Source: Desulfobacterales bacterium (GTDB taxonomy: Bacteria > Desulfobacterota > Desulfobacteria > Desulfobacterales > JANQIE01). Taken from it: DNA of 64,000 bases. The notes beneath the pieces were generated by a model, which made no database searches, was not told the origin of the DNA, and was given only the letters and a program-made list of their open reading frames with translations. A program made the position numbers and the translations under genes. The stretch covers positions 1-64,000 of the forward strand of contig JANQIE010000081.1 in assembly GCA_028282295.1 (NCBI GenBank). Reading direction: 5' to 3'. Positions 29,701-52,486 of the stretch are shown piece after piece. Each line of letters opens with the position of its first letter. Within the stretch, counting starts at the first letter, position 1.

Positions 29701-29839
29701 CATTCCCTGGCATTTTGGCTGGCGCTGGCCGCAATCCGGCGCCGAAGAAAGTGCGAATCTGCTGACACCGGCGGTTGGTGACCCGAATACACGGATTCCT
29801 GAAACCAAGGCCTTTATGGTCAATGTAACCCGGACATAA
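26765..29839 (+). CDS. fdhA: Selenocysteine-containing formate dehydrogenase alpha subunit, Tat-exported
   Basis: MELTRRGFIKISGATAAG Tat signal; CPYCAVGCG Fe-S motif; in-frame TGA 27338-27340 gives VYIEHQARIUHSATVAALAESFGRGAMTNHW. Confidence 0.95.
27358..27372 (+). promoter_or_regulatory. Bacterial SECIS-like hairpin in fdhA
   Basis: GGCTCT-GGC-AGAGTC hairpin (one G.U) with GG in loop at +24/25 after UGA. Confidence 0.65.
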
Positions 29840-31790: not shown

Positions 31791-32498
31791 TCACTCTTCA
31801 ATAAAATCCGCGAGCCCAACCTGCTCGAAGAGATTTTTGAAATTCTCCTGCAAACCGGTGATAACGAATTGGCGTCCCTGGGCCTTGCCGGTTTCCAGTA
31901 TATGGGACAGAATATCGAGTCCGGCACCACTGATCGACGCATTGTCATCGAAATCCAGAACCACCTTGGGTTTGTCCCGGGCCAGGGCGCTGTCGCACGC
32001 GTTTTTCAAAAGCGTCTCATGTTGGGTGGTCACACTACCACGAATTTTGATCACCACGGCATCGTCCTGTGTGTCGACCGAGACGACGCGTGCCCGATCG
32101 GCGGCCAGTTGACGGCGGATTTCGGCCCGCTTCAAGGCATGATCCAAAGTCTGACGCTGAATCGGTTTATTGATGAAGTCGGTGGCATCCAGGTTCAGGG
32201 CCTTGACGGCCAGATCCATGTCGCCATGCCCGGTGATGACGATAACCTGGGTTTCCGGATCGAGTTTCTTGATCCGCTTTAGAACTTCAATGCCGTCGAT
32301 CCCCGGCATCTTGATGTCGGTCAGGACCAGTGTCGGTTTTTCCTTTTCAAAAATTGCAAGCCCCTCTTTACCGTTTTGCGCAGTAAACACCGTGTAGCCA
32401 TAGGCGCCCAATATCAGCCGGAACATGGTCAGCGTCGGTGCTTCGTCGTCGATGATCAGAATTTTGTCCATAGCATCCCACCCACCTTGAAAGGGCAA
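31791..32498 (-). CDS. Response regulator with C-terminal STAS domain
   Basis: REC motif PTLVLTDIKMPGIDG; C-terminal STAS-like VVIKIRGSVTTQHETLL...VVLDFDDNASISGAGLDIL. Confidence 0.85.
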   Translation of the reverse strand: MPFQGGWDAMDKILIIDDEAPTLTMFRLILGAYGYTVFTAQNGKEGLAIFEKEKPTLVLTDIKMPGIDGIEVLKRIKKLDPETQVIVITGHGDMDLAVKALNLDATDFINKPIQRQTLDHALKRAEIRRQLAADRARVVSVDTQDDAVVIKIRGSVTTQHETLLKNACDSALARDKPKVVLDFDDNASISGAGLDILSHILETGKAQGRQFVITGLQENFKNLFEQVGLADFIEE

Positions 32499-32517
32499 TT
32501 ACGCAGTTTGAATAAAA

Positions 32518-34509
32518 TCAGTTCACGGCGTCAAAGCTCAGTGTGAAAACAGTTCCTTGACCCATTTTACTGTCGATTTGAATATCACCGCCATAATCTT
32601 TGATGATACCATAAGTGATAGCCAGGCCCAAGCCCATTCCCTTGCCGATCTCCTTGGTAGTAAAAAAGGGTTCGAATATTTTTTGCTGAACCGTTTCGTC
32701 GATACCGACACCGGTGTCGCTGATTTGCGCAAAAACGCGTCCATTGGCGGCGTAGGTTCGAATGTTGATGTTGCCGCCCTGTTTTTCGGGATCATGCGGC
32801 TTTTCTTTGATGGCATCGCGCGCGTTGGTCACAAGATTGAAAAAAACCTGTTGCACGCGATTCTCGTGGGCCATGATCGCCGGCAGGTTGTCGGTCAATG
32901 CCAACTCAATCTTGATGTTATCCAGCTCGAATTGACCACTGACCGTGGCAAAAACACCTTTGACCGGTCGATTGATGTCCATTTTTTCCTTGACCAGGGA
33001 CGATTTGCGGCCGAACGAGCGCAGAGTGCTGATAATATCGGCCGCCCGGTCGACCTGGGTGCTGATGGTGGCGGCCGCTTCAACCGTCTGCTGCCGGGGG
33101 ACATCATAATTTCCGGCGACGACCATTTCCAGAAAATCACTGCCCATTTTTATTGCATTGAGCGGCTGATTAAGTTCATGGGCAATGCCGGCCGACATTT
33201 CGCCCAGCGATTTCATCTTGCTGGCTTGAATGAGTTGAATGTCTTTTTCGATCATATCAGTGACATCAGTGGCGGCAATAATGACCGCCGGCCGGCTTTT
33301 GAAACTGATCGCACAACTGCGCAGATTCACATAAAATTCATCCCGGTTCTTTTTGAAACTGCGTAATTTGGGATAGAACATGCACCCGTGATCAGCAGTG
33401 TTTTTTTCAAGATCTTCGGGTGTAACCTTGGCGTAGTCCGGGCCGAAGTGTTCAAATGACCGGCCGATCAATTCCGTCACCGTGTAGCCGTATAGCTCCA
33501 CGGTGCGCGGATTGGCGTCGATGATGCGCATGGTCTCGGCATCCAGGACGAATATCGGATCCGGTCCGCTGTCGAACAGACTGCGGTATTTTTCTTCGCT
33601 TTCACTCAGGCGTTGGCGGTACAATTTGATGCTCCAGACCATATTATGAAAGGAATCGGCCAACTGGGCCACCTCGTCTCCCTGGGACTGCCGGTAGAAG
33701 AGACAGGCGTCGCATCGGGGCGTGTTCTGGCCGGTGCTTTTGGCCTGGGCTTGCCAGACCATCGGGTCGCCGAAATGCCAGCACGGCAGGCCGGTCTCCT
33801 TGTGGGCGGGGCAATTCGGCGGTTGCCTGCCTTCGGGTTGCTCACCCATGTTCAGTGGAATATCCAATCCACCGCGACTGATGGCAAGGGCCGTCCGGGT
33901 CAGTTCGGTAATCGGCATGGTGATATATTTGGACAGCTTCAGGCAGATGATAAAAGTAATGATGATCACCAGCGAGATGAACCCCAGGAACATGAAACGC
34001 AGTTTTGAAATCAGTTTGTCGATGTGGGTTTTGCTCAGGCCCACATGCACCGTGCCGATGCGGTAGATACCCTCTTTGATCGGCGTGGCGATGTCATAGA
34101 TCGGCAGCCGGTCGATATTGATCAGTTTGACACTTTTGTCCTGCGCCGGCGGCACCCGATTGATGCTACGCAGGTCTTTGGGAAACGGGCGTACAAAAGT
34201 ATGACTCAACAATTTGTTATCCGGATCGACAATATAAATGTAAACGATCAGATCCTTGCGTTCGCTAAGCTGCACCTCGTCGTAAATGAAACTAAGCAGT
34301 TTGGGGTAGTCTTTGTCGAGGATGTAGCCGCTGCTGCTCTCAGCGATGCTGCGGGCCAGGGCAATGCCCCGCAGTTCGAGTTCCGACGTCAAACTGCTGA
34401 TCAATATCCAGCGGGCCAGAAAAGCAATGGCCACACTGATGGTCAGGATAACCGCCAGGATGGAGAAGAAGATTTTGTTTTTCAGACTGATGGCGCGAAA
34501 ATGCTTCAT
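32518..34509 (-). CDS. Sensor histidine kinase with Cys-rich insert in HAMP, PAS, HisKA, HATPase
   Basis: Two TM segments, HAMP split by CPAHKETGLPCWHF...CDACLFYRQ, PAS, H-box [15 protein letters not shown]. Confidence 0.88.
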   Translation of the reverse strand: MKHFRAISLKNKIFFSILAVILTISVAIAFLARWILISSLTSELELRGIALARSIAESSSGYILDKDYPKLLSFIYDEVQLSERKDLIVYIYIVDPDNKLLSHTFVRPFPKDLRSINRVPPAQDKSVKLINIDRLPIYDIATPIKEGIYRIGTVHVGLSKTHIDKLISKLRFMFLGFISLVIIITFIICLKLSKYITMPITELTRTALAISRGGLDIPLNMGEQPEGRQPPNCPAHKETGLPCWHFGDPMVWQAQAKSTGQNTPRCDACLFYRQSQGDEVAQLADSFHNMVWSIKLYRQRLSESEEKYRSLFDSGPDPIFVLDAETMRIIDANPRTVELYGYTVTELIGRSFEHFGPDYAKVTPEDLEKNTADHGCMFYPKLRSFKKNRDEFYVNLRSCAISFKSRPAVIIAATDVTDMIEKDIQLIQASKMKSLGEMSAGIAHELNQPLNAIKMGSDFLEMVVAGNYDVPRQQTVEAAATISTQVDRAADIISTLRSFGRKSSLVKEKMDINRPVKGVFATVSGQFELDNIKIELALTDNLPAIMAHENRVQQVFFNLVTNARDAIKEKPHDPEKQGGNINIRTYAANGRVFAQISDTGVGIDETVQQKIFEPFFTTKEIGKGMGLGLAITYGIIKDYGGDIQIDSKMGQGTVFTLSFDAVN

Positions 34510-34512
34510 GAA

Positions 34513-35904
34513 TCATTGCTCAGGCGACTGCCGGTTGCGGCGGTCCAACTCCGCCTTGACCATCTGCCAGTCATCGATCAATTTGAATTTACCCTGCGTG
34601 AGCCGGGTAAAATAGACCCGCTCCATGCCCTGATGATCCGAGGAATTAAAGGAAATATCGACATCCAGACCCGGGGAAAAGTTGCGGATCGACTCAATCC
34701 CCCGGATGAACTTGTCCCGGGTCAACTCTCTGCCGGCCCGCCGGAGCCCTTCCACCAGGACCCTGGCGTTGATGTAGCCTTCAAAGCTGACGAAGTTGGG
34801 TTTGTCTTCCGGAAAAGACGCTTGCAGCAGACGAATATATTCTTCGGCCTCATCGTCACGGTAACCGTCACGGAGTCCTTCAGGCGGGGGCACGACTTGC
34901 GACATGATCACCGCGACCTGCCTCAAATCGGCCAGCCGCCGGGCCAATTCCTCAGCCCCGACAAACGAGACATTATAAAACAGCGGGTTGAAGCCCTTTT
35001 GCAGCGCAAGCTTGATAAATTTGGCACAAGGATCGTACGTGCCGATCATGACCACTGCGTCGGCCCCTGACGTGATAATCCGGTTCAAGCCGTCCTCCAC
35101 GTCCAAAGTGCCGCGAATATAGGAGCCGCGCGCCACCGGGGCCAGGCCGAATTCCTTTAATGCCAGCTCCGTGCCGGTCAATCCGTCGAAACCGTAAGCA
35201 TCGTACTGATAGAACACCGCGATTCTGCGCAGCTTGAGATTTTCCAGAAAAAACCGGACCGCCGCCCGGGTCTCCTGGTAGTAGGATGAACGCACATTGA
35301 TCACCCAGCGATTGAACGGCTCGCGCAGAGCATTGGCGCCGGTGAACATGCCCAGCAACGGAATCCCGGCTTCTTCGACCATGGGAAGTATTTTTACCGT
35401 GGTGGGCGTCCCCACGTAACTGAACAGGGCAAAAACATTGTCTTCGACAATCAAGCGTTGGGTATTGGCAAGGCACCGGGGCGGATCATAACCATCGTCG
35501 TAGGCCGTGACGTTGATTTTGCGACCGTGCACACCACCTTGGGCGTTTATCGAGTTAATATAGGCCATGGCGCCATGCAGGGTCTGGGTGCCCAGATAAC
35601 CGGCGTGTCCCTTCAACGCCAAGGACGAGCCCAACCGGACTTGCGTGTCGCTGACCCCCGGCACCCCGGTTTGGGGTTGCGCCGGTGACGGGCTTGGCCG
35701 GCACCCGGCTACATTGCACAGCAGGCATAAAACCAAACCGATAAACAGCAGCCGTCGCTTCGTGGACGGCGAACGCCTGGAAGTATTTTGGGGGAAGATC
35801 GGACGGATGGTCTCCCGGAAACCTGAAGCAGTCATGTCAATACGACGATCCCTCGCAACGGTTCGAAACAATTTGCGAAAAACAAGCTGACGCATGCGTA
35901 TCAT
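34513..35904 (-). CDS. Leu/Ile/Val-type periplasmic binding lipoprotein
   Basis: Lipobox NVAGC; Peripla_BP_6-like sequence; overlaps the redoxin stop by 4 nt. Confidence 0.85.
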   Translation of the reverse strand: MIRMRQLVFRKLFRTVARDRRIDMTASGFRETIRPIFPQNTSRRSPSTKRRLLFIGLVLCLLCNVAGCRPSPSPAQPQTGVPGVSDTQVRLGSSLALKGHAGYLGTQTLHGAMAYINSINAQGGVHGRKINVTAYDDGYDPPRCLANTQRLIVEDNVFALFSYVGTPTTVKILPMVEEAGIPLLGMFTGANALREPFNRWVINVRSSYYQETRAAVRFFLENLKLRRIAVFYQYDAYGFDGLTGTELALKEFGLAPVARGSYIRGTLDVEDGLNRIITSGADAVVMIGTYDPCAKFIKLALQKGFNPLFYNVSFVGAEELARRLADLRQVAVIMSQVVPPPEGLRDGYRDDEAEEYIRLLQASFPEDKPNFVSFEGYINARVLVEGLRRAGRELTRDKFIRGIESIRNFSPGLDVDISFNSSDHQGMERVYFTRLTQGKFKLIDDWQMVKAELDRRNRQSPEQ

Positions 35905-36503
35905 TTTTTATTCAGTTTTTCCAGCTCCGTGGCACATACCCGCAGGTCCGGCCGGACATTAATGTCCGACACTTCGATAAACGAGATGAGCCCCTTTTTA
36001 TCGATGATGATCAACGCCCGTTCGCTGACGCCGTCCGAACGCAGAACACCGTATTTTTCAGCCACCGCGCCGTGCGGCCAGAAATCACTCAGGACATGGA
36101 ACCACAACCCGCCCATCTGCCGGGTCCAGGCATGCAGGGTCGGGATGTTGTCCACCGTGATGCCCAGCAATACCGCGTCGTTTTTATCGAACAACCCCTT
36201 GGCGATATTGTAACCGGGCCATTGATCCGAACAAACCGGAGTCCAGGCCGCCGGCACGAACGAAAGCACCACGTTCTTGCGCCCCTTGAATTGACTGAGC
36301 GTAATTGTCTCTCCGCGCGTGGACGGCAAGGAGAAGTCCGGAGCCGGATCGCCGGCCTTTACCTTTAATCGGCTGTCGATCGGTTTTAATTGACCCGGAT
36401 TGTAAATTTTATCGCCATAGATATCCGAAAATGCCAGGACCGGGGGCAGGCTCCAAAGTAGACCGGCGGCCGTGATGACCAGGATTTGCGTAAAAATTCG
36501 CAT
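35901..36503 (-). CDS. Peroxiredoxin/redoxin-family protein, exported
   Basis: Signal peptide; PDFSLPSTRGETITLSQFKGRKNVVLSFVPAAWTPVCSDQ. Confidence 0.85.
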   Translation of the reverse strand: MRIFTQILVITAAGLLWSLPPVLAFSDIYGDKIYNPGQLKPIDSRLKVKAGDPAPDFSLPSTRGETITLSQFKGRKNVVLSFVPAAWTPVCSDQWPGYNIAKGLFDKNDAVLLGITVDNIPTLHAWTRQMGGLWFHVLSDFWPHGAVAEKYGVLRSDGVSERALIIIDKKGLISFIEVSDINVRPDLRVCATELEKLNKK

Positions 36504-37678: not shown

Positions 37679-38620
37679 ATGGAAAAGGAAAAACAGTTTA
37701 TGGACAGGTTGGAGGAAAAGGGGGTATCGCGCCGGGGCTTTATGAAATATTGTACCGCCCTGACCGCGACCATGGGATTGTCGTCGTCCTTTGTACCCAA
37801 GGTCGCCGAGGTCCTGGCCGCTCCCAAACAGCGCCCGCCGGTCATATGGCTGCATTTGGGCGAGTGCACCGGCTGTAGCGAGGCCCTGTTGCGCTCCCAG
37901 TATCCCTACCCCGACGACCTGGTGCTGGAAACCTTGTCGGTGGAGTACCATGAAACCATCATGGCCGCCGCCGGACATCAGGCCGAAGAAAATCTGCACA
38001 TGGCCATGAAGAAATACGCCGGCAAGTTCATCTGCGTGGTGGAAGGGGCCGTGGCCACCAAGTACAATGGCGGTTACGGCAAAGTGGCCGGCAAGTCGTT
38101 CGAACAGATCGCCAAGGAAGTAATCCCCAAGGCCGCCGGGGTGATCTGCATCGGTTCCTGTTCCTGCTTTGGCAACATCCCGGCGGCGGCGCCCAATCCC
38201 GGCGGCTATAAGGGGGTGGGTGAAGTTCTAGGCATCAAAACCGTCAATATCGCCGGGTGTCCGCCCAATCCGGTCAATTTTGTCGGCACCGTGGTCAATT
38301 ATCTCCTTTTGGGCAAACTACCCGCTCTGGATAATCTGGGGCGTCCCTTGTTCGCCTACGGCAAAACGGTTCATGATCAATGCCCGCGCCGCTCCCACTT
38401 TGAAAACGAGGAATTTGTCGAGGAGTTCGGCTCCGAAGAGGCGGCGGCCGGTTACTGCCTTTACAAGCTCGGCTGCCGCGGGCCGGAAACCTTCAACAAC
38501 TGCCCGGTGGCCAAATTCAATGACGGCACCAGTTGGCCCATTGAAGCCGGTCATCCATGCATCGGCTGCAGTGAGCCCGGTTTCTGGGATAAAATGACGC
38601 CGTTTTACGAGGAACTGTAA
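37679..38620 (+). CDS. Periplasmic [NiFe] hydrogenase small subunit
   Basis: Tat signal SRRGFMKYC; proximal cluster motif GECTGCSEALL; GSCSCFGNIPAA, GCPPNPVNF, LGCRGPETFNNCP, CIGCSEPGF. Confidence 0.93.
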   Translation: MEKEKQFMDRLEEKGVSRRGFMKYCTALTATMGLSSSFVPKVAEVLAAPKQRPPVIWLHLGECTGCSEALLRSQYPYPDDLVLETLSVEYHETIMAAAGHQAEENLHMAMKKYAGKFICVVEGAVATKYNGGYGKVAGKSFEQIAKEVIPKAAGVICIGSCSCFGNIPAAAPNPGGYKGVGEVLGIKTVNIAGCPPNPVNFVGTVVNYLLLGKLPALDNLGRPLFAYGKTVHDQCPRRSHFENEEFVEEFGSEEAAAGYCLYKLGCRGPETFNNCPVAKFNDGTSWPIEAGHPCIGCSEPGFWDKMTPFYEEL

Positions 38621-38658: not shown

Positions 38659-40308
38659 ATGGGTAAAAGAATAGTCGTCGATCCGATTACCAGAATCGAA
38701 GGCCACATGCGCGTCGAAGTGGAGATCGCCGGTGGCAAGGTCGTCAACGCCTGGAGTTCCGGGCAGATGTTCCGGGGCATTGAAATGATTTTACTGGGGC
38801 GCGATCCGCGTGACGCGCAGCATTTTGTGCAGCGCTCCTGCGGGGTCTGAACGTACATCCATGCTCTGTCCTCGGTGAGGGCAGTCGAAGACGCCGTTGG
38901 TGTCAAAGTCCCCCCAAACGCCCGCCTGATTCGCAATCTGCTCCATGGTGCCCAGGTCCAACACGATCATCTGGTCCATTTTTATCATCTCCATGCCCTG
39001 GACTGGGTCGATATCATCAGCGCTTTAAAAGCCGACCCGGCCAAAACCGCCAAGCTGGCCGACAACGTCAGCAACGCCAAAGTCGGCGGCACTGCCTACT
39101 ACAAACAGGTGGCCCAACGCCTGCAAACCTTTGTCGACAGCGGTCAGCTCGGCCCGTTCGCCAATGCCTACTGGGGCCACCCGGCCTACAAGCTGCCGCC
39201 CGAGGCCAACCTGATGGCGGCGGCCCACTACATCGAAGCAATCCGCCTGCAAGCCCGCACCGCACGGCTACACGCCATCTTCGGCGGCAAGAACCCGCAT
39301 CCGCAGTCGTTGGTGGTCGGCGGTATGACCTGTATCCGGGATCTGCGCCCCGACCGGCTGGCCGAATTTCTCTTCATCACCAAGGAAGCCCAGGATTTCA
39401 TCAAAAACGTCTACATCCCGGATCTATTGGCCGTGGCCTCGTTCTACAAGGACTGGGGCGGTATCGGCGGCACCACCAACTTTCTGGCCTACGGCGAGTT
39501 TCCCCAGACCGACCAGGAACCGGACAGCCTCTACATGCCGCGCGGCATGATCAAAAAGCGCAACCTGGGCGGCGTGGGCATGGTCGATCCAAAGAAAATC
39601 ACCGAAGACGTGACCCGCGCCTGGTACGAGGACGGTTCGCCCAAGCACCCCTATGACGGTGAAACCAAGCCGCTCAAGGAAGATCCCAAATACCGGCCGG
39701 GCGACGGCAAATACTCCTGGCTCAAGGCGCCGCGCTATGACGGCAACGCCTGTGAAGTCGGCCCGCTGGCCCGCGTGCTGGTGGCCTACGGCAAGGGCCA
39801 CAAGGACATCAAGCCGCTGGTGGACGGCACGCTCACCAAGCTCGGCATTCCGGCCGGCGCCCTGTTTTCAACCCTGGGCCGCACCGCGGCCCGCGCCCTG
39901 GAAACCGTGGCCGTGGGCGACGCCATGCAAGGATGGCTGAACGAGCTGGTCGGCAACATCAAAAGCGGCGACACCAAGGTCTACCAATCCTATGAAATGC
40001 CGGACGAAGCCCAGGGCTTTGGCCTGAACGACGTGCCGCGCGGCTCGCTGGGCCACTGGATCAAAATCAAGAACAAAAAGATCGCCAACTACCAGTACGT
40101 GGTACCGTCCACCTGGAACCTGGGCCCGCGCGACGGCCAGGGCAACATCAGCCCGGTGGAGGAAGCACTGATCGGCACCCCGGTCGCCGACCCCAAGCAA
40201 CCGCTTGAGATCCTGCGGACGGTCCACTCCTTTGACCCGTGCATCGCCTGCGCCGTGCACGTGATCGACCCGGACAGCAATGAGGTGTACAAAATCAGAG
40301 TCATTTAA
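38659..40308 (+). CDS. Periplasmic [NiFe] hydrogenase large subunit with predicted selenocysteine in N-terminal L1 motif (RSCGVU)
   Basis: In-frame TGA 38848-38850 joins ORFs 38659-38850 and 38875-40308: [29 protein letters not shown]-terminal DPCIACAVH followed by a 15-aa extension. Confidence 0.92.
38866..38884 (+). promoter_or_regulatory. Bacterial SECIS-like hairpin in hydrogenase large subunit gene
   Basis: CTGTCCT-CGGTG-AGGGCAG 7-bp stem (one G.U) with GG in loop at +24/25 after UGA. Confidence 0.75.
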
Positions 40309-40616
40309 AATGACAATTAAGAATTTTTAATTAAGAATTAAGAATTGAGGTTGGGGGTCATTATAGAAAGACTGAAAACCTTTATTCTTAATTCCCCATT
40401 TTTAATTATTAATTGCCGTCCAACGTCCCCGGCTTCCCGAATGCATCGGGAGGCCGGGGATTGTCTCTTTGACACGCACCTTGGGTCCTGCTAAAGAAAC
40501 AGGATTGCAAATGTCAAAGCCTGAAAACGCACGGCGTAACGGTAATTTGGCATTGGTGCCTTTGACATTTCGACTTTTAATTTTGAAATTTCACTTTAAG
40601 AAGCAGAATCAAAATT

Positions 40617-41156
40617 ATGCAGCAGCAACAGATCACAATCCTTGGTGTCGGCAACCTGTTGTTTCGTGACGAAGGCATCGGCGTCCGGGTGGCCGAACTG
40701 CTCGAACAACGGTACGACTTTCCCGACCATGTCGTGGTGGTGGACGGCGGGGTATTGGGCGTCAATCTGCTCGGCGTGATCGCCAACGCCGACAAACTGA
40801 TCGTCATCGACGCCATCCGCAACAAAAGTAAGCCGGGAACGTTGCACCGGCTGGCAGGTGACGAGATTCCCAAGCGGATTCTGGCTAAAAATTCGCTGCA
40901 TCAGGTCGATTTGCTGGAAGCCCTTACGCTTTGCAACGCCATCGACAAGCATCCCGAGACGGTGATTGTCGGCGTGGAGCCCGAAGATATTCGAACCTTG
41001 CAAGATGAACTGACACCCACGATTCAAGCCCGGGTCGAAGACCTGATCGCCATGGTCCTTACGGAACTCGATCGTTTGGACGTGTCCTACAGCCCCAGGA
41101 GTGCGACGGATGTGCCTTGCGATTCCATCCAAAATTGTGCAGATCGACGCGAATAA
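40617..41156 (+). CDS. Hydrogenase maturation endopeptidase
   Basis: ILGVGNLLFRDEGIGVRVAELLE and VVDGGVLGVNLL motifs of the HyaD/HybD family; follows large subunit. Confidence 0.9.
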   Translation: MQQQQITILGVGNLLFRDEGIGVRVAELLEQRYDFPDHVVVVDGGVLGVNLLGVIANADKLIVIDAIRNKSKPGTLHRLAGDEIPKRILAKNSLHQVDLLEALTLCNAIDKHPETVIVGVEPEDIRTLQDELTPTIQARVEDLIAMVLTELDRLDVSYSPRSATDVPCDSIQNCADRRE

Positions 41157-41346
41157 CATGGCGGTCATCGACGTGGAAGGTATCCGGCGTCAGGCCAGCC
41201 TTTTACTGCTCGAAGACGCCCAAGTCGGCGACTATGTGATCGTGCACGCCGGCTTTGCCATCAAAAAAATCGACGAGGCGGCCGCCAGGGAAACCATCGC
41301 TTACCTGCGCGAAGCGGTCTCCCGGGTCGACGATGAGTCCGCCTGA
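41110..41346 (+). CDS. hypC: Hydrogenase maturation chaperone HypC
   Basis: MCLAIPSKIV N-terminus and GDYVIVHAGFAI. Confidence 0.92.
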   Translation: MCLAIPSKIVQIDANNMAVIDVEGIRRQASLLLLEDAQVGDYVIVHAGFAIKKIDEAAARETIAYLREAVSRVDDESA

Positions 41347-44317
41347 TCACGTCATCAGCCGTTTCTCGCCTCAACGGATCTTCCGTCGCGTTCCCAATTT
41401 AATCCTGCGCCGCCCACTGGTGGTGTTGCTCATCATCCTGGCGGTGACCCTCGGGTTTATCTACCCCCTGCCACGCCTGGCATTCAAAACCACAGTCTAC
41501 GACCTGGTCATCGAAGACCTGCCGGAAACCCGCCGCTACGAAGCCTTTAAAAAAATCTTCGGGTCCGATGAAATCATCCGCATTGTTGTCAAGGCGCAAA
41601 ATGTCTTCGAGCCGGCCACCTTTGCCGCGATCACCGCGCTGGCCGACCAGGCAGCGCGCATTGAAGGGGTGCGGCGCATCATCAGCCTGCCGGGCATCAA
41701 GGCCACGGTCGATACCGGCGGCGCGCACGACCTGAAATCCTTTGCCGCCCTGATTGCGCCGGTCCAACTCTTTGAACGAAATCTTATCGCCAAAGATCAC
41801 AAATCGACCGTCATCACACTGGTTTTGAAGACCGGCGCCAACAATGCCGCGGTCCTTGCCGCCGTGCGGGCGTTGATCGACACCACGCCGGCATCGCTCG
41901 CCATCTACCAGATCGGCATGCCGCTGGTGTCCGAAGCGCTGGCGGAGTTTTCCGAAACCGACTTTCTGCGCATCCCGCCGGTCACTACCGTCATCATCGC
42001 CCTGTTGTTGATTCTGCTGTTTCGCAACCTCACCTGCCTGGTGGTGCCCCTGGCCACGGTCACCGTCGCCCAGATCTGGACCTTCGGCCTGATGGCCTGG
42101 CTGGGGGTGCCCCTGACCATGCTGACCATGATCGTGCCGGTGTTCCTGATCGCCGTGGGCACCGCCTACTGCCTGCACATCTGCTCCGAGTATCTGCACG
42201 TGAGCCCCACGGCGGCCGACTCGCGCGAGGCCGTGTCGCTCACCTTCGGCAAGCTGGCCTTTCCCACGGTGCTGGCCGTGGTGACCACCATGATCGGCCT
42301 GGGTACCCTGCTGATCAATGACATCAGCGCCATCCGGGAATTTGCCGTGTTTTCCGTGTTCGGCGCGTTCAGCCTGCTGGTGGTGATTTTAACCTTGTTT
42401 CCGGCGGTGCTGGTTCTGCTGCCGACCCCGGCCGGACGCAACCATGACGGCAACCCGGTTGAACGACGGATCAATGCACTGCTGCAACAGATTATCCGCA
42501 TCACCCTCGAACATCGCAAAATCGGTTTGAGCATCATCGGCGTTTTCGTGCTGGTGTGCCTGATCGGCATCACACGGGTGCGGGTGGAGACCAACCCGGT
42601 GGGCTATTTCAAGGCCGATGTGCCGGTGAGCCGTCATTTTCACGATATCTACCAGGATCTGTCCGGCAGCTTTCCCATCAACGTCATGATGCAGGGCCGC
42701 ACCGAGTACTTCTTCGAAGATCTGGCCAACGTGCGTCAGATCGAAAGGTTGCAACGCTACCTGCAAACCCTGCCGGATGTCGACAAGACCGTCTCCTTTG
42801 TCGACTACCTCAAACTGGTCAATTACACCCTGAACCGCTACGACCCCAAATTCTACAGCCTGCCCGAAGAAGCATTTGAACTGCGCATGCTGATCAACAA
42901 CTTCAAAAGCCTGTTGGGCCGCGACATGCTGCGCCGATTCATGGACGACGATTTCACCCGCGCCAATGTGCTGCTGCTCACCCACATCTCAAGCTCGCGC
43001 CGGTTCCTGGACACCCAAAGTGCCATTTTGGACCATGTGGCAAAAAACTTTAATGAATCGCTCCAATGGGATGTGACCGGCCTGGGATTGGTGATCTCCG
43101 CCAGCAGTCATCTGCTGGTCAGCGGGCAGGTCAAAAGCCTGTCGCTGACCCTGATCCTGATTTTCGCCATCATGGTGGCGCTGTTTCTGTCGAGCAAGGT
43201 CGGCTGCATCGCCCTGGTGCCGAACCTGTTTCCCATCGTGGTCAACTTCGGCCTGATGGGCTGGCTGGGGGTCCAGTTGTCGGTGGCCACCAGCCTGATC
43301 GCCAGTATCGCCATCGGCTTGGCCGTGGACGATACGATCCATTTTCTGGTGCGCTACAACGAGGAATTCAAAAAGGACCTGGACAAGGACCGGGCCCTGA
43401 AGGATACTATCCTGCAGGTCGGCCAGCCGATTATTTTCACCACCATCACCATCAGCCTCGGGTTTGCAGTCTTGATTTTCTCTCACTTCGAGCCGACCGC
43501 TCTGTTCGGCGTCATGATGGTGGTGACCATGCTGTCGGCCCTGGTTGGTGATTTAATTTTACTGCCGTCGCTGATGCTGCATGTCGAGCTGGTGACCGCC
43601 TGGGACCTGCTGAAACTGATTCCCACCCTGGGCGGCATGCCGCCGGGGCTGGCCCACGAAATCAACCAGCCGCTCAATGCCATCAAGGTGGGCAGTGAAT
43701 TTTTAAAACGGATGCTCAAACAGGGCGCTGCCATCAAAGAAGACCAACTGGCGCAGGTGGTTCACGCCATCAGCGCCCAGGTGGACCGGGCCTCGGAATT
43801 GATCAACCGGTTGCGCGATTTCGGCTACAAACCCGATCTGGCCAAAGGGCAGGTTGGTGTCAACGATGCCGTGCGGGCGATTTTGTCTTTGATGGAAGGA
43901 CAATTGGCGGTGGAGAATATCGAACTTGAACTAACCCTGGATGAAACCCTGCCGCCCATCATGGGCCACGACAACCGGCTGGCGCAGGTCTTTTTCAACC
44001 TGATCACCAATGCCGGCGAGGCGATCAACGCGGATGCCTCCGGCCGTAACCCGCGCCGCATCACCATCAGCACCCGGACCGAGCAGACCCGTGTCACGGC
44101 GTTGGTGGCCGACACCGGCATCGGCATGCCCGCGCACGTCAGGGACCGTATCTTCGAACCCTTCTTCACCACCAAGGCGGTGGGCACGGGCAAAGGGCTG
44201 GGGCTGACCATCACCAAGGAGATCGTGCGGGATTATGACGGCCGGATCGTTGTTGAAAGCAGTGTCGGGCAAGGAACCATCGTGAAATTGATTTTTCCGG
44301 CAACGGAAGAAAAGTAG
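41333..44317 (+). CDS. RND-superfamily (MMPL-like) membrane protein fused to histidine kinase
   Basis: Two RND repeats (IGLAVDDTIHFLVRYNEEF) then H-box [20 protein letters not shown]-box VFFNLITNAGEAI, G-boxes VADTGIGM and GTGKGLGLTI in one frame. Confidence 0.9.
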   Translation: MSPPDHVISRFSPQRIFRRVPNLILRRPLVVLLIILAVTLGFIYPLPRLAFKTTVYDLVIEDLPETRRYEAFKKIFGSDEIIRIVVKAQNVFEPATFAAITALADQAARIEGVRRIISLPGIKATVDTGGAHDLKSFAALIAPVQLFERNLIAKDHKSTVITLVLKTGANNAAVLAAVRALIDTTPASLAIYQIGMPLVSEALAEFSETDFLRIPPVTTVIIALLLILLFRNLTCLVVPLATVTVAQIWTFGLMAWLGVPLTMLTMIVPVFLIAVGTAYCLHICSEYLHVSPTAADSREAVSLTFGKLAFPTVLAVVTTMIGLGTLLINDISAIREFAVFSVFGAFSLLVVILTLFPAVLVLLPTPAGRNHDGNPVERRINALLQQIIRITLEHRKIGLSIIGVFVLVCLIGITRVRVETNPVGYFKADVPVSRHFHDIYQDLSGSFPINVMMQGRTEYFFEDLANVRQIERLQRYLQTLPDVDKTVSFVDYLKLVNYTLNRYDPKFYSLPEEAFELRMLINNFKSLLGRDMLRRFMDDDFTRANVLLLTHISSSRRFLDTQSAILDHVAKNFNESLQWDVTGLGLVISASSHLLVSGQVKSLSLTLILIFAIMVALFLSSKVGCIALVPNLFPIVVNFGLMGWLGVQLSVATSLIASIAIGLAVDDTIHFLVRYNEEFKKDLDKDRALKDTILQVGQPIIFTTITISLGFAVLIFSHFEPTALFGVMMVVTMLSALVGDLILLPSLMLHVELVTAWDLLKLIPTLGGMPPGLAHEINQPLNAIKVGSEFLKRMLKQGAAIKEDQLAQVVHAISAQVDRASELINRLRDFGYKPDLAKGQVGVNDAVRAILSLMEGQLAVENIELELTLDETLPPIMGHDNRLAQVFFNLITNAGEAINADASGRNPRRITISTRTEQTRVTALVADTGIGMPAHVRDRIFEPFFTTKAVGTGKGLGLTITKEIVRDYDGRIVVESSVGQGTIVKLIFPATEEK

Positions 44318-45265
44318 ATGAAAATTATGACAACAACACTCTACTGGCTCCAGGCCGGCGGTTGCGGTGGTGACACCTGGTCTTTTCTCAGCGCTGAATC
44401 GCCGGATGTCAGCGAATTGGTCGACATGTTGGCGGTCGATGTCCTGTGGCATCCGTCTTTTTCCCGTTTGCGGCCGGCCGAACTGGCAACCTTGCACCAC
44501 CAAATTGAGACCGGCGACCAAACCCTGGATATTTTATGCGTGGAGGGTGCGATCTTGCAGGGACCCGAGGGCACCGGCATGTGCGACACCCTGGCCGGCC
44601 GGCCCAAAATGGATCTGATCCGGGCCCTGGCCGCAAAAGCCCACCACGTGGTCGCCGTGGGCACCTGTGCCTGCTTCGGCGGCATCGGCGGCGATGCCAC
44701 CGCCCAGGCCACCGGGTTGCAGTATGACAAGTGGACCGGCGGCGGTTTGCTGGACGCCGGTTTTACCACCGGCAGCGGCCGGCCGGTGATCAACCTGCCG
44801 GGGTGTCCCTGCCACTGTGACGCCCTCACCGGCACTCTTACGGCGCTGGTCAACGGCACCCCCCTTGAACTGGACCACTACAACGCGCCGGCGGACTGGT
44901 ACGGCATCATGGTGCACCAGGGCTGCACGCGCAACGAATACCACGAGTACCGGGTGGAAGAAAAACGGTTCGGGGAAAAAGGCTGCCTGTTTTTCTACAT
45001 GGGCTGCCACGGCCCTCTGGTTTACGGCCCCTGCAACAAGAGTCTGTGGAACCGGCGGTCTTCCAAAACCCGCGTGGGCGTGCCCTGTTTCGGCTGCACG
45101 CGGCCGGATTTTCCCCAGAAGTATCCGTTCTTTCAAACGCGCAACATCGAAGGCATTCCCATCGATTTGCCCGACGGGGTCAGCCGGGCGCATTACCTGG
45201 CCTACAAAGGGATGGCTGCCGCCGCGGCCCCCAGACGCTTGATCAAACGCAAAACCGGAATTTAA
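44318..45265 (+). CDS. Cytosolic sensor-type [NiFe] hydrogenase small subunit (HupU/HoxB-like)
   Basis: No signal peptide; LYWLQAGGCGGDTWSF, GTCACFGGIGG, GCPCHCDAL, CFGCTRPDFP motifs; starts right at preceding stop. Confidence 0.8.
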   Translation: MKIMTTTLYWLQAGGCGGDTWSFLSAESPDVSELVDMLAVDVLWHPSFSRLRPAELATLHHQIETGDQTLDILCVEGAILQGPEGTGMCDTLAGRPKMDLIRALAAKAHHVVAVGTCACFGGIGGDATAQATGLQYDKWTGGGLLDAGFTTGSGRPVINLPGCPCHCDALTGTLTALVNGTPLELDHYNAPADWYGIMVHQGCTRNEYHEYRVEEKRFGEKGCLFFYMGCHGPLVYGPCNKSLWNRRSSKTRVGVPCFGCTRPDFPQKYPFFQTRNIEGIPIDLPDGVSRAHYLAYKGMAAAAAPRRLIKRKTGI

Positions 45266-45278
45266 AGGGCCTGCTGCC

Positions 45279-46787
45279 ATGAGTGCCAAAAAAATCCAGA
45301 TCCTGCCGCTCAACCGGGTAGAAGGCGACCTGGAACTGCACCTCGAACTGCGCGACGGCGCGGTTTACGAGGTGCGCAGTGTGGGCACCATGTACCGCGG
45401 GATAGAAAACATCCTGAAGGGCCGCGCGCCCCTGGACAGCCTTGTAATTACACCGCGAATTTGCGGAATCTGCAGCACCGCCCATCTGAAAGCCGCGGCC
45501 AAAGCCCTGGACATGGTGTTCGGCGTTGACGTGCCCGACAATGCCCGCCGGGTGCGCAATGTCACCCTGATGGCGGAGCAGCTTCAAAACGATCTGCGCC
45601 ACAGCTTTTTACTTTTCTGTCCGGATTTTACCCATGCGGCCCATGCCCGCCAACCCCTGCATGCCGAGGCCGTGCAGCGGTACCTGCCGCTCAAGGGGAC
45701 CACGGCGCGGCAGGTCATCCAGCAGACCAAAACGCTGCTGGAAATCGTGGCGGTCCTGGGCGGTCAGTGGCCTCATTCTTCCTTCATGGTGCCGGGCGGT
45801 GTGGTGTCGGTGGCCGGTGTCAACGAAATCAACCAATGCCGCAGTCTGCTGCGCAATTTTCGCCGCTGGTATGAACACCGCATTTTAGGCTGCCCCCTGG
45901 AGCGCTGGCTGGACGTCAAAAACCGGACCAACCTGTTTCGCTGGCTGGAAGAAAAACCGGCCCACCACGACAGCGACCTCGGTTTTTTTATCCGCTTTTG
46001 CGCTGCCGCCGGCTTGATCCGGCCGACCGGCGGCTACCGTAATTTCCTATCCTACGGCGCCTTTGAAATGCCGCGGCAAACAGCCGTAAAACGCATCAAC
46101 GGCGGCAAAACCCTGCTTCCGGGCGGATTTGTCAACGATGGGGTGCCGGCAACATTCAACCAGGAGAAAATCGGCGAAGATATTGCCTGCGCCCGTTTTA
46201 CCGGTTACACGGGCAGCCGGCACCCGTTCAACGGCCTGACCCGGCCACTGGCCGCAACGGAAGATGACGTCAAATACAGTTGGGCCAAGGCCCCGCGCTA
46301 TCACAACCTGCCGGCGGAGACCGGACCGCTGGCCGAACGGGTGGTTGCCGCCGATCCGCTGTTTATCGATCTGGTCACGCCCGACGGACCCAGCGTGTTC
46401 AGCCGGCAGTTGGCCCGTCTGGTCCGGCCGGCGCAAATTCTACCGGTCATGGATACCTGGTTGCAGGAAATCGGCCACTCGCCGGAAGGTTTTTTTACCA
46501 ACTACGCCAAGGTGACCGACGGGCAGGGCTTCGGCCTGGTGCAGGCCCACCGGGGCGCCCTGGGCCACTGGCTGCAAATCGAAAACGGCAGGATCGCCCA
46601 CTATCAAATCATTACCCCCACCGCCTGGAACGCCTCACCGCGCGATGGGGCCGGACGGCGCGGCCCCTGGGAGCAGGCCCTGGTCGGCACCCACATCGAC
46701 AACCCCGCACAGCCCATCGAGGCCGAGCATATCGTGCGCAGTTTCGACCCCTGCCTGGTGTGTGCGGTTCACACGGTCGCAACATAA
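45279..46787 (+). CDS. Sensor-type [NiFe] hydrogenase large subunit (HupV/HoxC-like)
   Basis: RICGICSTAHL L1 motif; ends SFDPCLVCAVHTVAT with no cleavable C-terminal extension. Confidence 0.85.
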   Translation: MSAKKIQILPLNRVEGDLELHLELRDGAVYEVRSVGTMYRGIENILKGRAPLDSLVITPRICGICSTAHLKAAAKALDMVFGVDVPDNARRVRNVTLMAEQLQNDLRHSFLLFCPDFTHAAHARQPLHAEAVQRYLPLKGTTARQVIQQTKTLLEIVAVLGGQWPHSSFMVPGGVVSVAGVNEINQCRSLLRNFRRWYEHRILGCPLERWLDVKNRTNLFRWLEEKPAHHDSDLGFFIRFCAAAGLIRPTGGYRNFLSYGAFEMPRQTAVKRINGGKTLLPGGFVNDGVPATFNQEKIGEDIACARFTGYTGSRHPFNGLTRPLAATEDDVKYSWAKAPRYHNLPAETGPLAERVVAADPLFIDLVTPDGPSVFSRQLARLVRPAQILPVMDTWLQEIGHSPEGFFTNYAKVTDGQGFGLVQAHRGALGHWLQIENGRIAHYQIITPTAWNASPRDGAGRRGPWEQALVGTHIDNPAQPIEAEHIVRSFDPCLVCAVHTVAT

Positions 46788-46793
46788 CACGCT

Positions 46794-48887
46794 ATGACGA
46801 CCCCGCAATCTCTTCCCCAGGCCACCGTTACCGCCGAACAACTGCAGGCGTTGCTGCGGGAAAATAGACGCCTGCGCAAGGAAATCCAGGTGGCGCGCGA
46901 GGCCGCAGAGATCACGGCCAACCTGGTAGTCAAACAATTCGAGGAGACCGAGCGGGTTTTAAAACGCTTTCAGGACGCCAACGCCCAGCGTAAAGCCGTG
47001 CTCGACTCAGCCACCCAGATCGCCATTATCGCCACCGACATCGACGGCCTCGTCACAGTGTTCAACTCCGGGGCGCAAAACCTGCTCGGGTACCGGGCGG
47101 CCGACATCATCGGGCTTAAAACGCCGGTGGCCTTTCACGTGCCGGAAGAACTTCGGCGCCATGCCGCAAAACTAGCGCAGCAGTACAACCAGTCCATCCA
47201 GGCGGGGATTGATGTGCTGCTGACCTATGCCCGCCAGGGATACAGCGAGCAGACCGAATGGATCTACCGGCGTAAAACCGGCGAGCATTTTCCGGTGAGC
47301 ATGTCGATCAATGCGTTGTTGGACCCGCTGGGCGAATTCAACGGCCTGTTGTGCATCGCCATGGACATCACCGAAAAAAAGCGTTCAGATAAGGCCCTCA
47401 AGGAGAGTGAACGCAACTACCGGTTGCTGATGGCCAACATCCCCAACATCGTCTTCAAGGGCTACAAAGACGGCAGCATCGATTTTTTCGACGACAAGAT
47501 CGAAGCGCTGACCGGTTACAAACGCGAAGCGTTTATGTCGCGCAAGGTGAACTGGCCCGACCTGGTGCTGGAAGCCGACCAACCCGGTGTGCGCGCCGCG
47601 CTTATCCAGGCGTTGAAAGGCGACAAGCAGTATATCCGCGAGTACCGCATCCGCAAAAAAAACGGCGAGGTCATCTGGGTGGAGGCCGGCAACCAGATTA
47701 TTTGCGACGCCGCCGGTGAAATCGAGTTTATCACCGGCGCCTTTCTGGACATCACCGAACGCAAGGCCGCCGAAAAGGCCCTGCACCAGTCCGAGGAAAA
47801 ATACCGGTCGCTGTTTGCCGGCGGGCCGAACCCGATTTTTGTCCTCGACCGCCAAACCCTGGAAATCCTGGACGCCAACCCGAGTGCCGAACAGACCTAC
47901 GGCTACGCCAAGGCGGAATTGATCGGCCGCTGTTTCACCGACCTGGGCCGGTTTGAATACGAACACAAAACCTTTGCCGAAATGGGCGACAGCGACTGGT
48001 CCCAGGGGTGCGTGGTCAGCCAGAAGATCCGTCACTACAAAAAAGGGCACCAGCCGTTTTACACCAAGGTCAAGGCCTGCCCGGCCCAATACAAGAATCG
48101 CCACGCGATCATCCTGGCGGCCACCGACATCACCGAGACGGTGGAAAAAGACGCCCAGCTTTTCCAGGCCGGCAAAATGACCACCCTGGGAGAAATGTCG
48201 GCCGGAATCGCCCATGAGTTGAACCAGCCGCTCAACGCCATCAAAATCGGCAATGAATACCTGAAGAAGATGGTCCAGAAGGGCCGGGCAGTATCCGAAA
48301 AAGATCTTTTGGCCGTGACCACGGCGGTGACCGGTCAGGTGGAACGGGCCTCGGACATTATCAACCGCTTGCGGGAATTCGGCCGCAAACCGGATTTCAA
48401 AAAAGAGCTTGTCAATATCAACGATACGCTTAAATATGTGCACAGCATCATCGGTCAACAATTGATCCTGCAAAATATCAATGTCGGTTTCGACCTGGCG
48501 CCCGATCTGCCGCCGATCCTGGCCAATAAAAACCGGCTCGAACAGGTGGTGTTCAATCTGGTGACCAATGCCCGCGACGCCATTGAGCAGGCGTCCGGTG
48601 ATGATTCGTTGGCCGCGGTGCGCGAAATCCGCTTCACCAGTTTTCGTGAAAACCGGCAGGTGGTCTTCACTGTGGCCGACACCGGTGTCGGCATTGCGCG
48701 GGAAATGAGCGAGAAGATCTTTGAGCCGTTTTTCACCACCAAGGAGGTCGGCAAGGGGATGGGCCTGGGGCTTGCAATCTCCTACGGCATTGTGCGCGAT
48801 TTCGGCGGCAGCATCAAGGTGGAAAGCCATCAAGGGCAGGGCACTGTTTTTATCCTGAGTTTTCCCGGTGTCAAAGAAACGAAGTAA
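46794..48887 (+). CDS. Multi-PAS sensor histidine kinase, probable partner of sensor hydrogenase
   Basis: Three PAS/PAC-like segments, H-box [15 protein letters not shown], HATPase; no TM segments. Confidence 0.88.
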
Positions 48888-48918
48888 CCGGGTGGACACC
48901 CGAAACAAAGGTTTTAGC

Positions 48919-49287
48919 ATGAAGAAAATCCTGGTTATCGACGACGAAGCGCCCACGTTGGAGATGTTGCAGCTTTTTTTGGGAGCCTTGGACTACACTG
49001 TTTTGACGGCTGAAAACATGTCCGACGGGTTGGCCCTGTTTGAGCAGGAGCGGCCGCCCATTGTGCTGACCGATATCAAGATGCCGGGCAAGGACGGGTT
49101 TGAAGTGGTGCGGCAAATCAAGGCCGTCGCGCCGGCCACCGAAGTGATCGTTATCACCGGCCATGGCGACAGCGCGCTGGCCCGGCAGGCATTTGACCTG
49201 GCGGCGAGCGCGTTTATCCATAAGCCGCTGGATACCGACGCTTTGGAAGCGGCGTTGCAAGAGGCCGAAAAGAAGTTGGGACTGTAA
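48919..49287 (+). CDS. Single-domain response regulator
   Basis: KKILVIDDEAPTLEML, PPIVLTDIKMPGKDG; ends after REC domain. Confidence 0.88.
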   Translation: MKKILVIDDEAPTLEMLQLFLGALDYTVLTAENMSDGLALFEQERPPIVLTDIKMPGKDGFEVVRQIKAVAPATEVIVITGHGDSALARQAFDLAASAFIHKPLDTDALEAALQEAEKKLGL

Positions 49288-49295
49288 GGTTGACA

Positions 49296-50384
49296 ATGAC
49301 CGTGGAATTTCTCAAAGCCTTCAGCGAACCGGAACTGGCGCAGCAACTGATTCAACAGATCAAAGCAAAAAGCCGCACCCCGATCCGGCTGATGGAGGTG
49401 TGCGGCACCCACACGGTGGCCCTGTTTCGCAGCGGTATCCGTTCCGTCCTGCCGGAAACCATCAGTCTGCTGTCCGGGCCGGGGTGCCCGGTGTGCGTCA
49501 CCGCTCAGCAGGAGATCGACGCATTTATCGCCCTGGCCCGGCAAGAAGATGTAATCATCACCACCTTCGGCGACCTGATCCGCGTGCCCGGCACCTGCTC
49601 TTCCCTGCAACAACAGCGGGCCGGCGGCCGGGATATCCGCATGGTGTACGCCACCACCGACGCCCTGGCCATTGCCCGTGAAAATCCGGCCAGACAGGTC
49701 GTGTTCCTGGGGGTCGGGTTCGAAACCACTGCCCCTACCGTGGCTGCCGCCGTGATGGCCGCCAGGGCCGAAGGATTGAAGAACTTTTCCGTGATCAGCG
49801 CCCACAAGCTGGTGCCGCCGGCCCTGGCCGCCTTGATCCAAACCGCCAACATCCGGCTGGACGGGTTTATCCTGCCGGGCCATGCGTCGGTGATCATCGG
49901 CCTGAACGCCTACCGGCCGGTGTTTGCCGAACACCCCATGGCCGCGGTGGTGACCGGTTTCGAGCCGATCGACATACTTCAGGGGCTTGCCCTGCTAGTG
50001 GCGCAGATTGAAGCCGGGGAGAAGCAATTGGCCAACGCCTATCCCCGCGCGGTGACGGCCGAAGGCAACCAGCCGGCCCAAAAGATTTTAGCCGACGTTT
50101 TTAGACCGGTGGATGCGCTCTGGCGGGGGCTCAGCGTGATCCCCCGAAGCGGTCTGGCCCTGGCGGAAGCCTATGGCGAATTTGACGCGACCCGGCGGTT
50201 TCAGATTGAAGTTGAAGATGTGCCCGAACCCAAAGGCTGCGCCTGCGGCGAAATCCTGACCGGTTTAAAAACACCGCCCGAATGTGCGCTTTACCAAAAA
50301 AAGTGTACCCCGGCCGCGCCGGTGGGACCGTGCATGGTGTCGAGCGAGGGGACGTGTGCGGCCTACTACAGATATCAGGGGTGA
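49296..50384 (+). CDS. hypD: Hydrogenase maturation protein HypD
   Basis: MEVCGTHTVALFRSGIRSVLP, GPGCPVCVT, FETTAPTVA. Confidence 0.95.
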   Translation: MTVEFLKAFSEPELAQQLIQQIKAKSRTPIRLMEVCGTHTVALFRSGIRSVLPETISLLSGPGCPVCVTAQQEIDAFIALARQEDVIITTFGDLIRVPGTCSSLQQQRAGGRDIRMVYATTDALAIARENPARQVVFLGVGFETTAPTVAAAVMAARAEGLKNFSVISAHKLVPPALAALIQTANIRLDGFILPGHASVIIGLNAYRPVFAEHPMAAVVTGFEPIDILQGLALLVAQIEAGEKQLANAYPRAVTAEGNQPAQKILADVFRPVDALWRGLSVIPRSGLALAEAYGEFDATRRFQIEVEDVPEPKGCACGEILTGLKTPPECALYQKKCTPAAPVGPCMVSSEGTCAAYYRYQG

Positions 50385-50392
50385 TTCTGCTT

Positions 50393-51403
50393 ATGACTAA
50401 AACCAAAATACTTCTCGATCACGGCAGCGGCGGCAAGATGGCGCAGGACTTGATCGCCGATCTGATGCTGCCGGGCTTTGACAACCCGATGCTGGCCAAG
50501 CTGGACGACGGCGCCGTGCTGGAGCTGAACGGGCAGCGGCTGGCCTTTTCAACGGACAGTTATGTGGTCGATCCGATCTTCTTCCCCGGCGGCTGCATCG
50601 GCGACCTGGCCATCAACGGCACCGTGAACGATATCGCCATGTGCGGGGCCCGGCCGCTTTTTTTAAGTGTCGGGTTGATTATCGAAGAAGGCTTTGACCA
50701 GGACGATCTCAAGCGCATCCTGGCCGCCATGTCGGCTGCCGCCCGGCAGGCCGGGGTGCTGGTGGTGACCGGCGACACCAAGGTCGTGCCCCGGGGTGCG
50801 GCCGACAAAGTCTTTATCAACACCACCGGGATCGGCGTGATTCCCGCTGGCGTTGCCGTCGGCGGCGATAATGCCCGGATCGGTGATCAGGTAATTGTCA
50901 GCGGCACCCTGGCCGATCACGGTATGACGATCCTGAGTCAACGCGAAGGGTTGTCTTTCGATAGCACGCTTGAGAGCGATTCGGCACCGCTGAATCACCT
51001 GGTCGACGCCATGCTCCAGGACGGTCGCGCGGTGCACGTGCTGCGGGACCCGACCCGCGGTGGCGTCGCCACCACCCTTAATGAAATTGCCCAGAGTTCA
51101 ACGGTCGGCATCCGGTTGATCGAAGATCAAATTCCGGTCAAGCCCGACGTGGCCGGCGTATGCGACCTGTTGGGCTTTGATCCGCTTTACGTAGCCAACG
51201 AAGGTAAACTGCTGGCCGTGGTGGCGCCCGAAGATGCCGCTGCCGTGCTGGCGGTCATGCAGGCCGACCCGCATGGCGCCGATGCCTGCATCATCGGCGA
51301 AGTAATCGCGGATCATCCGGGCAAAGTCTTCATGCAAACCCGCATCGGCGGCCACCGCATCGTCGATATGTTAACCGGCGAACAACTGCCACGAATTTGT
51401 TAG
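50393..51403 (+). CDS. hypE: Hydrogenase maturation protein HypE
   Basis: LLDHGSGGKMAQDLI N-terminus and C-terminal PRIC. Confidence 0.95.
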   Translation: MTKTKILLDHGSGGKMAQDLIADLMLPGFDNPMLAKLDDGAVLELNGQRLAFSTDSYVVDPIFFPGGCIGDLAINGTVNDIAMCGARPLFLSVGLIIEEGFDQDDLKRILAAMSAAARQAGVLVVTGDTKVVPRGAADKVFINTTGIGVIPAGVAVGGDNARIGDQVIVSGTLADHGMTILSQREGLSFDSTLESDSAPLNHLVDAMLQDGRAVHVLRDPTRGGVATTLNEIAQSSTVGIRLIEDQIPVKPDVAGVCDLLGFDPLYVANEGKLLAVVAPEDAAAVLAVMQADPHGADACIIGEVIADHPGKVFMQTRIGGHRIVDMLTGEQLPRIC

Positions 51404-51472
51404 ATCATGTCCATCCGGCAAATAGATCATGTTGGTGGGCACGGCCCACCGTTGACTAATCAGGAATACTTG

Positions 51473-52486
51473 ATGAAACGTTTATTACTGCTCGGGTGCA
51501 TCCTGTTTGTGGCTGTTGGTTGCAACCTGAAAAAGGAGATTCTGTTTACCGGCCGAACCATGGGCACGATCTATCATATCAAGGTGATCGCCTGGTTCCA
51601 CAAGGATTTATCTTCGCTGGAAGAAGCAATTGCCGGACGTTTGCAAACGATCAACCAGAGCATGTCGACGTATCTGCCCGACAGTGAAATCAGCCGGTTC
51701 AACGCCCTTGAGCGTACCGGCGAGAAGTTCGCGGTTTCCGAGGACTTTTACCATGTCATGGCGGTGGCCCAAAACCTTCATGAATTAACCGGCGGCGCCT
51801 GGGACGGGACGGTCAAGCCGCTGGTCGATTTGTGGGGGTTCGGCAACAAGGGCGAACCGCCGGATCGATTGCCGCCGGCGCAAACCATCAAGGCGCTGTT
51901 GGCGCGGACCGGGTTTGGTCATATCGATGTTTCCCAGCCGGGGTATTTGATTAAAAACTCGGGCGGCGTGACCCTGAACCTGGCGTCCATCGCCAAAGGT
52001 TACGGCGTTGATGAAGTGGCCCGTGTGGTGCACCGGGCCGGCTTTGAAGATTTTCTGGTGGAGATCGGCGGCGAGGTCTATGCCGCCGGTGTGCGGCTGG
52101 ACGGCAACCCCTGGCGCGTCGGCATCAACCGGCCGGAACGGGGCGCGCCCGTGAATGCCGTGCATAAAGTGGTTGCGTTAAAAAACAGGGCCTTTGCCAC
52201 CAGCGGCGATTACCGCAATTATTTTGAATTGGACGGCCGTTTTTATTCCCACATCCTCGACCCGCGCACCGGTTATCCGGTCCAAAACGGCGTGGTCAGC
52301 GTGTCGGTGCTGGCGGACAACTGCACCCTGGCCGATGGTCTGGCAACAGCCGTGATGGTGTTGGGACCCGAGCAGGGCGTGGCCGTCATGCGCCGGCTGG
52401 AACACGTGGAAGGGCTGGTAATCGTCAGAGGCGCGCACGGCGACTATCGCGAATACGTCACCCCCGGTTTTCGTGCGAACATGTAG
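51473..52486 (+). CDS. apbE: ApbE-family FAD:protein FMN transferase (lipoprotein)
   Basis: Lipobox VAVGC; MGTIYHIKV, NLASIAKGYGVDEVARV, HILDPRTGYPV motifs. Confidence 0.9.
   Translation: MKRLLLLGCILFVAVGCNLKKEILFTGRTMGTIYHIKVIAWFHKDLSSLEEAIAGRLQTINQSMSTYLPDSEISRFNALERTGEKFAVSEDFYHVMAVAQNLHELTGGAWDGTVKPLVDLWGFGNKGEPPDRLPPAQTIKALLARTGFGHIDVSQPGYLIKNSGGVTLNLASIAKGYGVDEVARVVHRAGFEDFLVEIGGEVYAAGVRLDGNPWRVGINRPERGAPVNAVHKVVALKNRAFATSGDYRNYFELDGRFYSHILDPRTGYPVQNGVVSVSVLADNCTLADGLATAVMVLGPEQGVAVMRRLEHVEGLVIVRGAHGDYREYVTPGFRANM

Follow-up and report, generated by a model that had tools for sequence, protein, structure and literature searches.

How might a gene cluster for an uptake hydrogenase put a second, sensor-type [NiFe] hydrogenase, two histidine kinases and a single receiver to use? 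This question is raised by a 64,000-nt stretch of a Desulfobacterales genome (the window), which is part of contig C192 in a 5.46-Mb genome of 326 contigs. The original prediction described a run from hypC to hypE; its genes all lie on the plus strand, the ends, overlaps and gaps that it gave are correct, and profiles confirm each gene.

The gene string and its conserved core

The string is wider than first described, with the uptake hydrogenase small (SU) and large subunit (LSU) genes and HupD upstream and an ApbE gene 3 nt downstream of hypE (gene ends are from open frames):

37679..38620, plus strand: uptake [NiFe] hydrogenase SU (TIGR00391, 2.5e-121; TAT signal)
38659..40308, plus strand: uptake hydrogenase LSU (PF00374, 7.6e-220; one in-frame TGA, 38848-38850)
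40617..41156, plus strand: HupD maturation protease, overlapping hypC (TIGR00140, 1.2e-48)
41110..41346, plus strand: HypC chaperone, overlapping HupD and RND-HK (PF01455, 9.6e-27)
41333..44317, plus strand: membrane protein of the RND/MMPL fold with a fused histidine kinase, RND-HK (Pfam, alignments, model, fold search)
44318..45265, plus strand: putative sensor hydrogenase SU (Pfam, alignments)
45279..46787, plus strand: putative sensor hydrogenase LSU (RICGIC and DPCLVC intact)
46794..48887, plus strand: PAS histidine kinase, PAS-HK (Pfam: three PAS matches, HisKA, HATPase_c)
46794..47018, plus strand: predicted coupling coiled coil, the N-terminal ~75 codons of PAS-HK (profile matches almost only beside LSU)
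48919..49287, plus strand: single-domain receiver with Asp52, REC (PF00072, 7.5e-27)
49296..50384, plus strand: HypD maturation protein (TIGR00075, 5e-136)
50393..51403, plus strand: HypE maturation protein (TIGR02124, 7e-140)
51407..52486, plus strand: ApbE-type FMN transferase (PF02424, 1e-88)

The RND-HK frame begins with an ATG at 41333 and overlaps hypC by 14 nt, its stop codon directly adjoins the SU start (TAG/ATG, 44315-44320), and gaps of 13 and 6 nt separate the sensor SU from LSU and LSU from PAS-HK. hypD starts at about 49296 (a TTG at 49290 is possible) and hypE at about 50393. Scanning of the hypC-to-hypE run for terminators revealed no convincing one, and the count of sigma-54 sites was below chance expectation. 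Between the uptake LSU and HupD lies a hairpin (40425-40461; 16 bp, weak T tail), a possible attenuator or processing site that may divide the uptake structural genes from HupD and the genes behind it. The HypF gene is located outside the run, on contig C106.

Orthologues of the sensor LSU were detected in 45 of the 390 genomes searched (about 45-63% identity), and 40 neighbourhoods were then fetched around LSU matches; the relatives are nearly all metagenome-assembled, and one of the 40, L073, contains a distant relative only. In almost all 40 neighbourhoods, the gene downstream of SU-LSU was a signalling gene, with or without PAS domains. Many genera share the core [RND-HK]-[REC]-SU-LSU-PAS-HK-[REC], around which hyp genes come and go, at LSU identities of 48-63%, and this recurrence indicates that the order is more than chance. 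Gene content and core order support the predicted partnership of a sensor-type hydrogenase with a PAS kinase and single-domain regulator. In contrast, the eight-gene order with hypC, hypD and hypE, which had been proposed as a conserved unit, did not hold up: only the core was conserved in the neighbourhood search, as hypD and hypE follow REC only in the window and in L038, there 2.4 kb away. The RND-HK fusion was found near SU-LSU in 14 of the 40 neighbourhoods, with two more cases from L108 and L109; in L040 it is encoded on the other strand, accompanied by a PAS-HK and a REC of its own, and L061 is frameshifted. Public examples are the MAGs DS_bin_10 (L126, Desulfobacteraceae), CSMAG_771 (L127, Desulfobacterales) and PIR-30 (L128, Desulfobacteraceae).

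Two genes of the window carry an in-frame TGA. In the uptake LSU, TGA 38848-38850 stands where the N-terminal nickel-site (L1) motif has its second Cys (RSCGV-U), and is a probable selenocysteine codon in an uncommon place: [NiFeSe] enzymes usually carry Sec in the C-terminal motif, in which every Cys is retained here, and UxxC is the sole Sec form listed for hydrogenase alpha subunits in a review (PMC13188914). Just past the TGA, the hairpin CUGUCCUC-GGU-GAGGGCAG is near-invariant in the TGA orthologues of the fetched loci (20/20) and absent from 25 Cys rows, a few of which are sensor LSUs. Among the matches listed across the 390 genomes, 55 have one TGA, and tRNA-Sec is present. The other gene (26588-29839, plus strand) is formate dehydrogenase-like, and the TGA that splits it (27338-27340, context EHQARI-U-H) is the usual Sec site of FDH.

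Two kinases, one receiver and an RND module

As had been noted, the regulator has no output domain, and this is a conserved property in the lineage: the RECs are all single-domain and retain DDE, Asp and Thr, and also Lys except in the frameshifted L060. Exactly one stand-alone REC was present in each of the 12 relatives with both kinases that we compared, either after PAS-HK or between RND-HK and SU. In addition, RND-HK accompanied 18 of 19 non-hybrid sensor kinases but only 2 of 23 hybrid ones (counted by genome; Fisher 1e-8, with two partial RND-HK copies counted as present and phylogeny ignored, as in all our co-occurrence tests). This suggests, short of proof, that both kinases feed one REC, and the second, membrane RND kinase of the original prediction probably acts on that same regulator.

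Alternatively, PAS-HK and RND-HK might serve two parallel pathways with separate partners, their linkage reflecting the shared hydrogenase context only. Same-locus co-variation of the DHp regions of both kinases was indeed weak, as 406 of 5,000 shuffles reached the observed value, and we set it aside as proof of a shared partner. Separate partners would also fit the related sCache/PAS kinase and REC-STAS nearby (31791-34509) and the occurrence of RND-HK without the sensor hydrogenase. However, the lone REC in 12 of 12 loci, its position at times beside RND-HK, the core motif common to PAS-HK and RND-HK (ending -x-G), and the tracking of the non-hybrid kinase by RND-HK all point to convergence and make parallel pathways unlikely.

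RND-HK is encoded in a single frame with MMPL repeats (6e-33) followed by HisKA and HATPase_c. The TM12-kinase linker (vELvTAWDl) is largely conserved in 14-17 aligned homologues. The AlphaFold model (pLDDT 79) has a 12-TM RND fold, as in MmpL4/MmpL5, HpnN and Patched/NPC1, with two periplasmic porter-like domains; the nearest solved structures are MmpL4/MmpL5 for the RND part (TMt 0.7-0.8) and ZraS and FixL for the kinase part. A degenerate kinase was ruled out: the in-frame kinase is 43-53% identical to its relatives, and its boxes (H775, N889, D927, GLGL) are invariant in 17 sequences. About 20 full fusions were found in the 390 genomes, spread over about 20 genomes of the order, plus three elsewhere in the phylum; two of these three represent another family, in which a PAS-HK/RND-HK/REC set is divergent from the uptake hydrogenase and a sensor hydrogenase is lacking. 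RND-HK can do without the H2 sensor: in L105-L107, L264 and L265 it occurs and the sensor hydrogenase is absent. In the open-access literature, we found nothing relevant on RND or MMPL proteins fused to a histidine kinase, which is no proof of absence. CbrA is a transporter-fused sensor kinase with an SLC5 fold as its input half; both it and RND-HK have a transporter-fold input, that of RND-HK being an RND fold in a hydrogenase context.

In several loci (L111-L119, L122-L124), the RND module instead has cNMP-binding and GGDEF domains fused to it, the GGDEF domain having lost its catalytic motif. The RND modules of the closest of these proteins are 48-63% identical, and many of the genes lie inside uptake-hydrogenase operons with HupD, HypC, HypD, HypE and ApbE (the order HypE-ApbE-RND recurs in L106-L119). 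Among the loci listed, from fragmented assemblies, an RND module was found within 20 kb of the uptake hydrogenase in 24 of 49. Judging by operon membership and this proximity, the RND module is a companion of the periplasmic uptake hydrogenase, and some lineages combine this module with the sensor hydrogenase.

The RND half could also be mainly a working exporter for the uptake hydrogenase, for example of lipid-like compounds, with the kinase or cNMP/GGDEF domains gating transport. Its nearest structures, HpnN/MmpL-like profile scores and the retained Asp666-Asp667 pair in TM10 are in line with export. The TM4 motif VGTAYC/A, by contrast, is invariant, with Ala where a carboxylate would be expected in a proton-driven RND pump; its absence also sets the family apart from RND/MMPL transporters, although the relay layout differs between RND branches. 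Moreover, exchange of an intact kinase for a degenerate GGDEF domain behind one and the same RND module is a receptor-like arrangement. We regard a mainly exporting role as improbable, and favour the RND half as the sensory input of a kinase.

On the minus strand of the window, 31791-36503 encode a thioredoxin-fold peroxiredoxin-like protein, a Peripla_BP_6 binding protein, an sCache/HAMP/PAS kinase and a REC-STAS protein, a second, related signalling set. A similar binding protein/PAS-HK/REC set adjoins RND-HK in L106 and L107.

The putative sensor hydrogenase and its proposed coupling helix

The second SU-LSU pair has neither a signal peptide nor a C-terminal LSU extension and is linked to a kinase; on these grounds we take it to be a putative sensor. 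Its LSU retains the two Cys pairs, and four residues follow the last motif His, so no processing should be needed, as for HoxC. HydDB distinguishes group 2b, 'histidine kinase-linked', from group 2c, 'diguanylate cyclase-linked (putative)' (PMC5037454). An LSU tree of 81 rows placed the window sequence in a 62-row clade (support 99) with LSUs from Methylobacter and Ideonella, which have DGC/PDE genes downstream. HoxC and HupV formed their own fully supported group apart from the window family; forcing the family together with 2b cost 49 log units (AU p 0.014). The SU signatures read GGCGGD in the window, ACGGD or SCGGD in 2c, GGCGGC in HoxB/HupU and ACSGN in Huc-type 2a, and the window shares GGD and SSKTRxGVPCFGCT with 2c. 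The window SU has a short AAAAPxRLxKRKTGI end in place of the HoxB-type C-terminal tail. At position 19, where the HoxB motif has its second Cys, Asp is found throughout the window family and in 2c, and Asn in Huc-type 2a; this residue may mark an altered proximal cluster.

Tree and SU signature thus place the window hydrogenase on the 2c side, where a signalling gene likewise adjoins LSU. It differs from 2c in its output, a PAS histidine kinase with REC, in an LSU that has neither a C-terminal extension nor a dedicated protease gene, and in the coupling coiled coil of its kinase. The neighbouring diguanylate cyclase of 2c is missing from the window, whereas many relatives have REC-GGDEF or GGDEF proteins. 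With HoxBC-HoxJ-HoxA and HupUV-HupT-HupR it shares a cytoplasmic [NiFe] hydrogenase, an LSU without extension and an adjacent PAS histidine kinase, but the architecture of the kinase is unlike that of HoxJ, a second RND kinase is present, and the NtrC-type regulator (HoxA/HupR) is absent from the window and its relatives, which have a single-domain REC. The window hydrogenase would accordingly act like 2b without being a member of it.

The most conserved part of the signalling proteins downstream of LSU is their first ~60 residues, a predicted coiled coil judging from the heptad-like sequence. It precedes simple histidine kinases as in the window, hybrid kinases with REC-GGDEF partners, and plain GGDEF proteins (L147, L150). 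A profile of this helix (A3) matched in 47 of the 390 genomes, nearly always once and adjoining LSU: LSU and helix occurred together in 43 genomes, LSU alone in two (at or near contig ends) and the helix alone in four (three near contig ends). HoxJ, the Methylobacter and Ideonella DGC proteins and the remaining kinases of the window all lacked the helix. This almost exclusive link of the helix to the sensor hydrogenase is a new observation of our analysis, and suggests that the helix docks to the hydrogenase or transmits from it.

The helix also bears on whether SU-LSU might be a metabolic hydrogenase, Huc-like and with a group 2a role, rather than a sensor. Its catalytic cysteines are intact, and among solved structures the energy-conserving Huc comes closest; however, nearly all loci pair SU-LSU with a helix-bearing signalling protein and have no conserved electron-transfer partner, so that we consider a metabolic role quite unlikely. 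Least likely of all is an ordinary HupUV/HoxBC (2b) system minus its NtrC-type regulator, next to an unrelated RND gene: the LSU without extension as in HoxC, the adjacent PAS kinase and the overall logic match, but the separate HoxC/HupV clade with the AU rejection, the Asp for Cys and missing tail in SU, and the recurring RND-HK linkage argue against it, and tree, AU test and SU signature reject the HupUV/HoxBC kinship originally proposed.

A branched model for H2 signalling

Overall, we consider it fairly probable that the locus encodes a branched H2-signalling system wired into the uptake-hydrogenase gene cluster, with both kinases acting on one receiver. In this model, the cytoplasmic 2c-side hydrogenase would detect H2, and its state would pass to the N-terminal coiled coil of the adjacent kinase and on through the PAS array to the kinase core, so that PAS-HK sets the phosphorylation of REC at Asp52. 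RND-HK, with its 12-TM RND/MMPL-fold sensory half, would act on the same receiver and report a condition of the membrane or periplasm that is connected with the uptake hydrogenase. Phosphorylated REC may signal onward through a phosphorelay or through contact with a protein, and would most likely tune hydrogenase expression.

A broader reading, which we put forward tentatively and just short of probable, is that the RND/Patched-like input module, whether on a histidine kinase or on a cNMP-binding and dead GGDEF protein, defines a new receptor class that works with the sensor hydrogenase; histidine kinase, hybrid kinase and GGDEF outputs would all dock through one helix, and the kinases would converge on one receiver.

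Even for HoxBC/HoxJ, it is not yet settled how the state of the hydrogenase reaches its kinase (PMC6978683). As the short helix accompanies the hydrogenase in many genera and with several output types, docking becomes amenable to a simple test. With the RND-kinase fusion, a transporter fold would join the known sensor inputs, and a membrane signal would be tied to H2 metabolism. The window family would also provide a histidine-kinase branch for HydDB group 2c, which has been no more than 'putative' so far.
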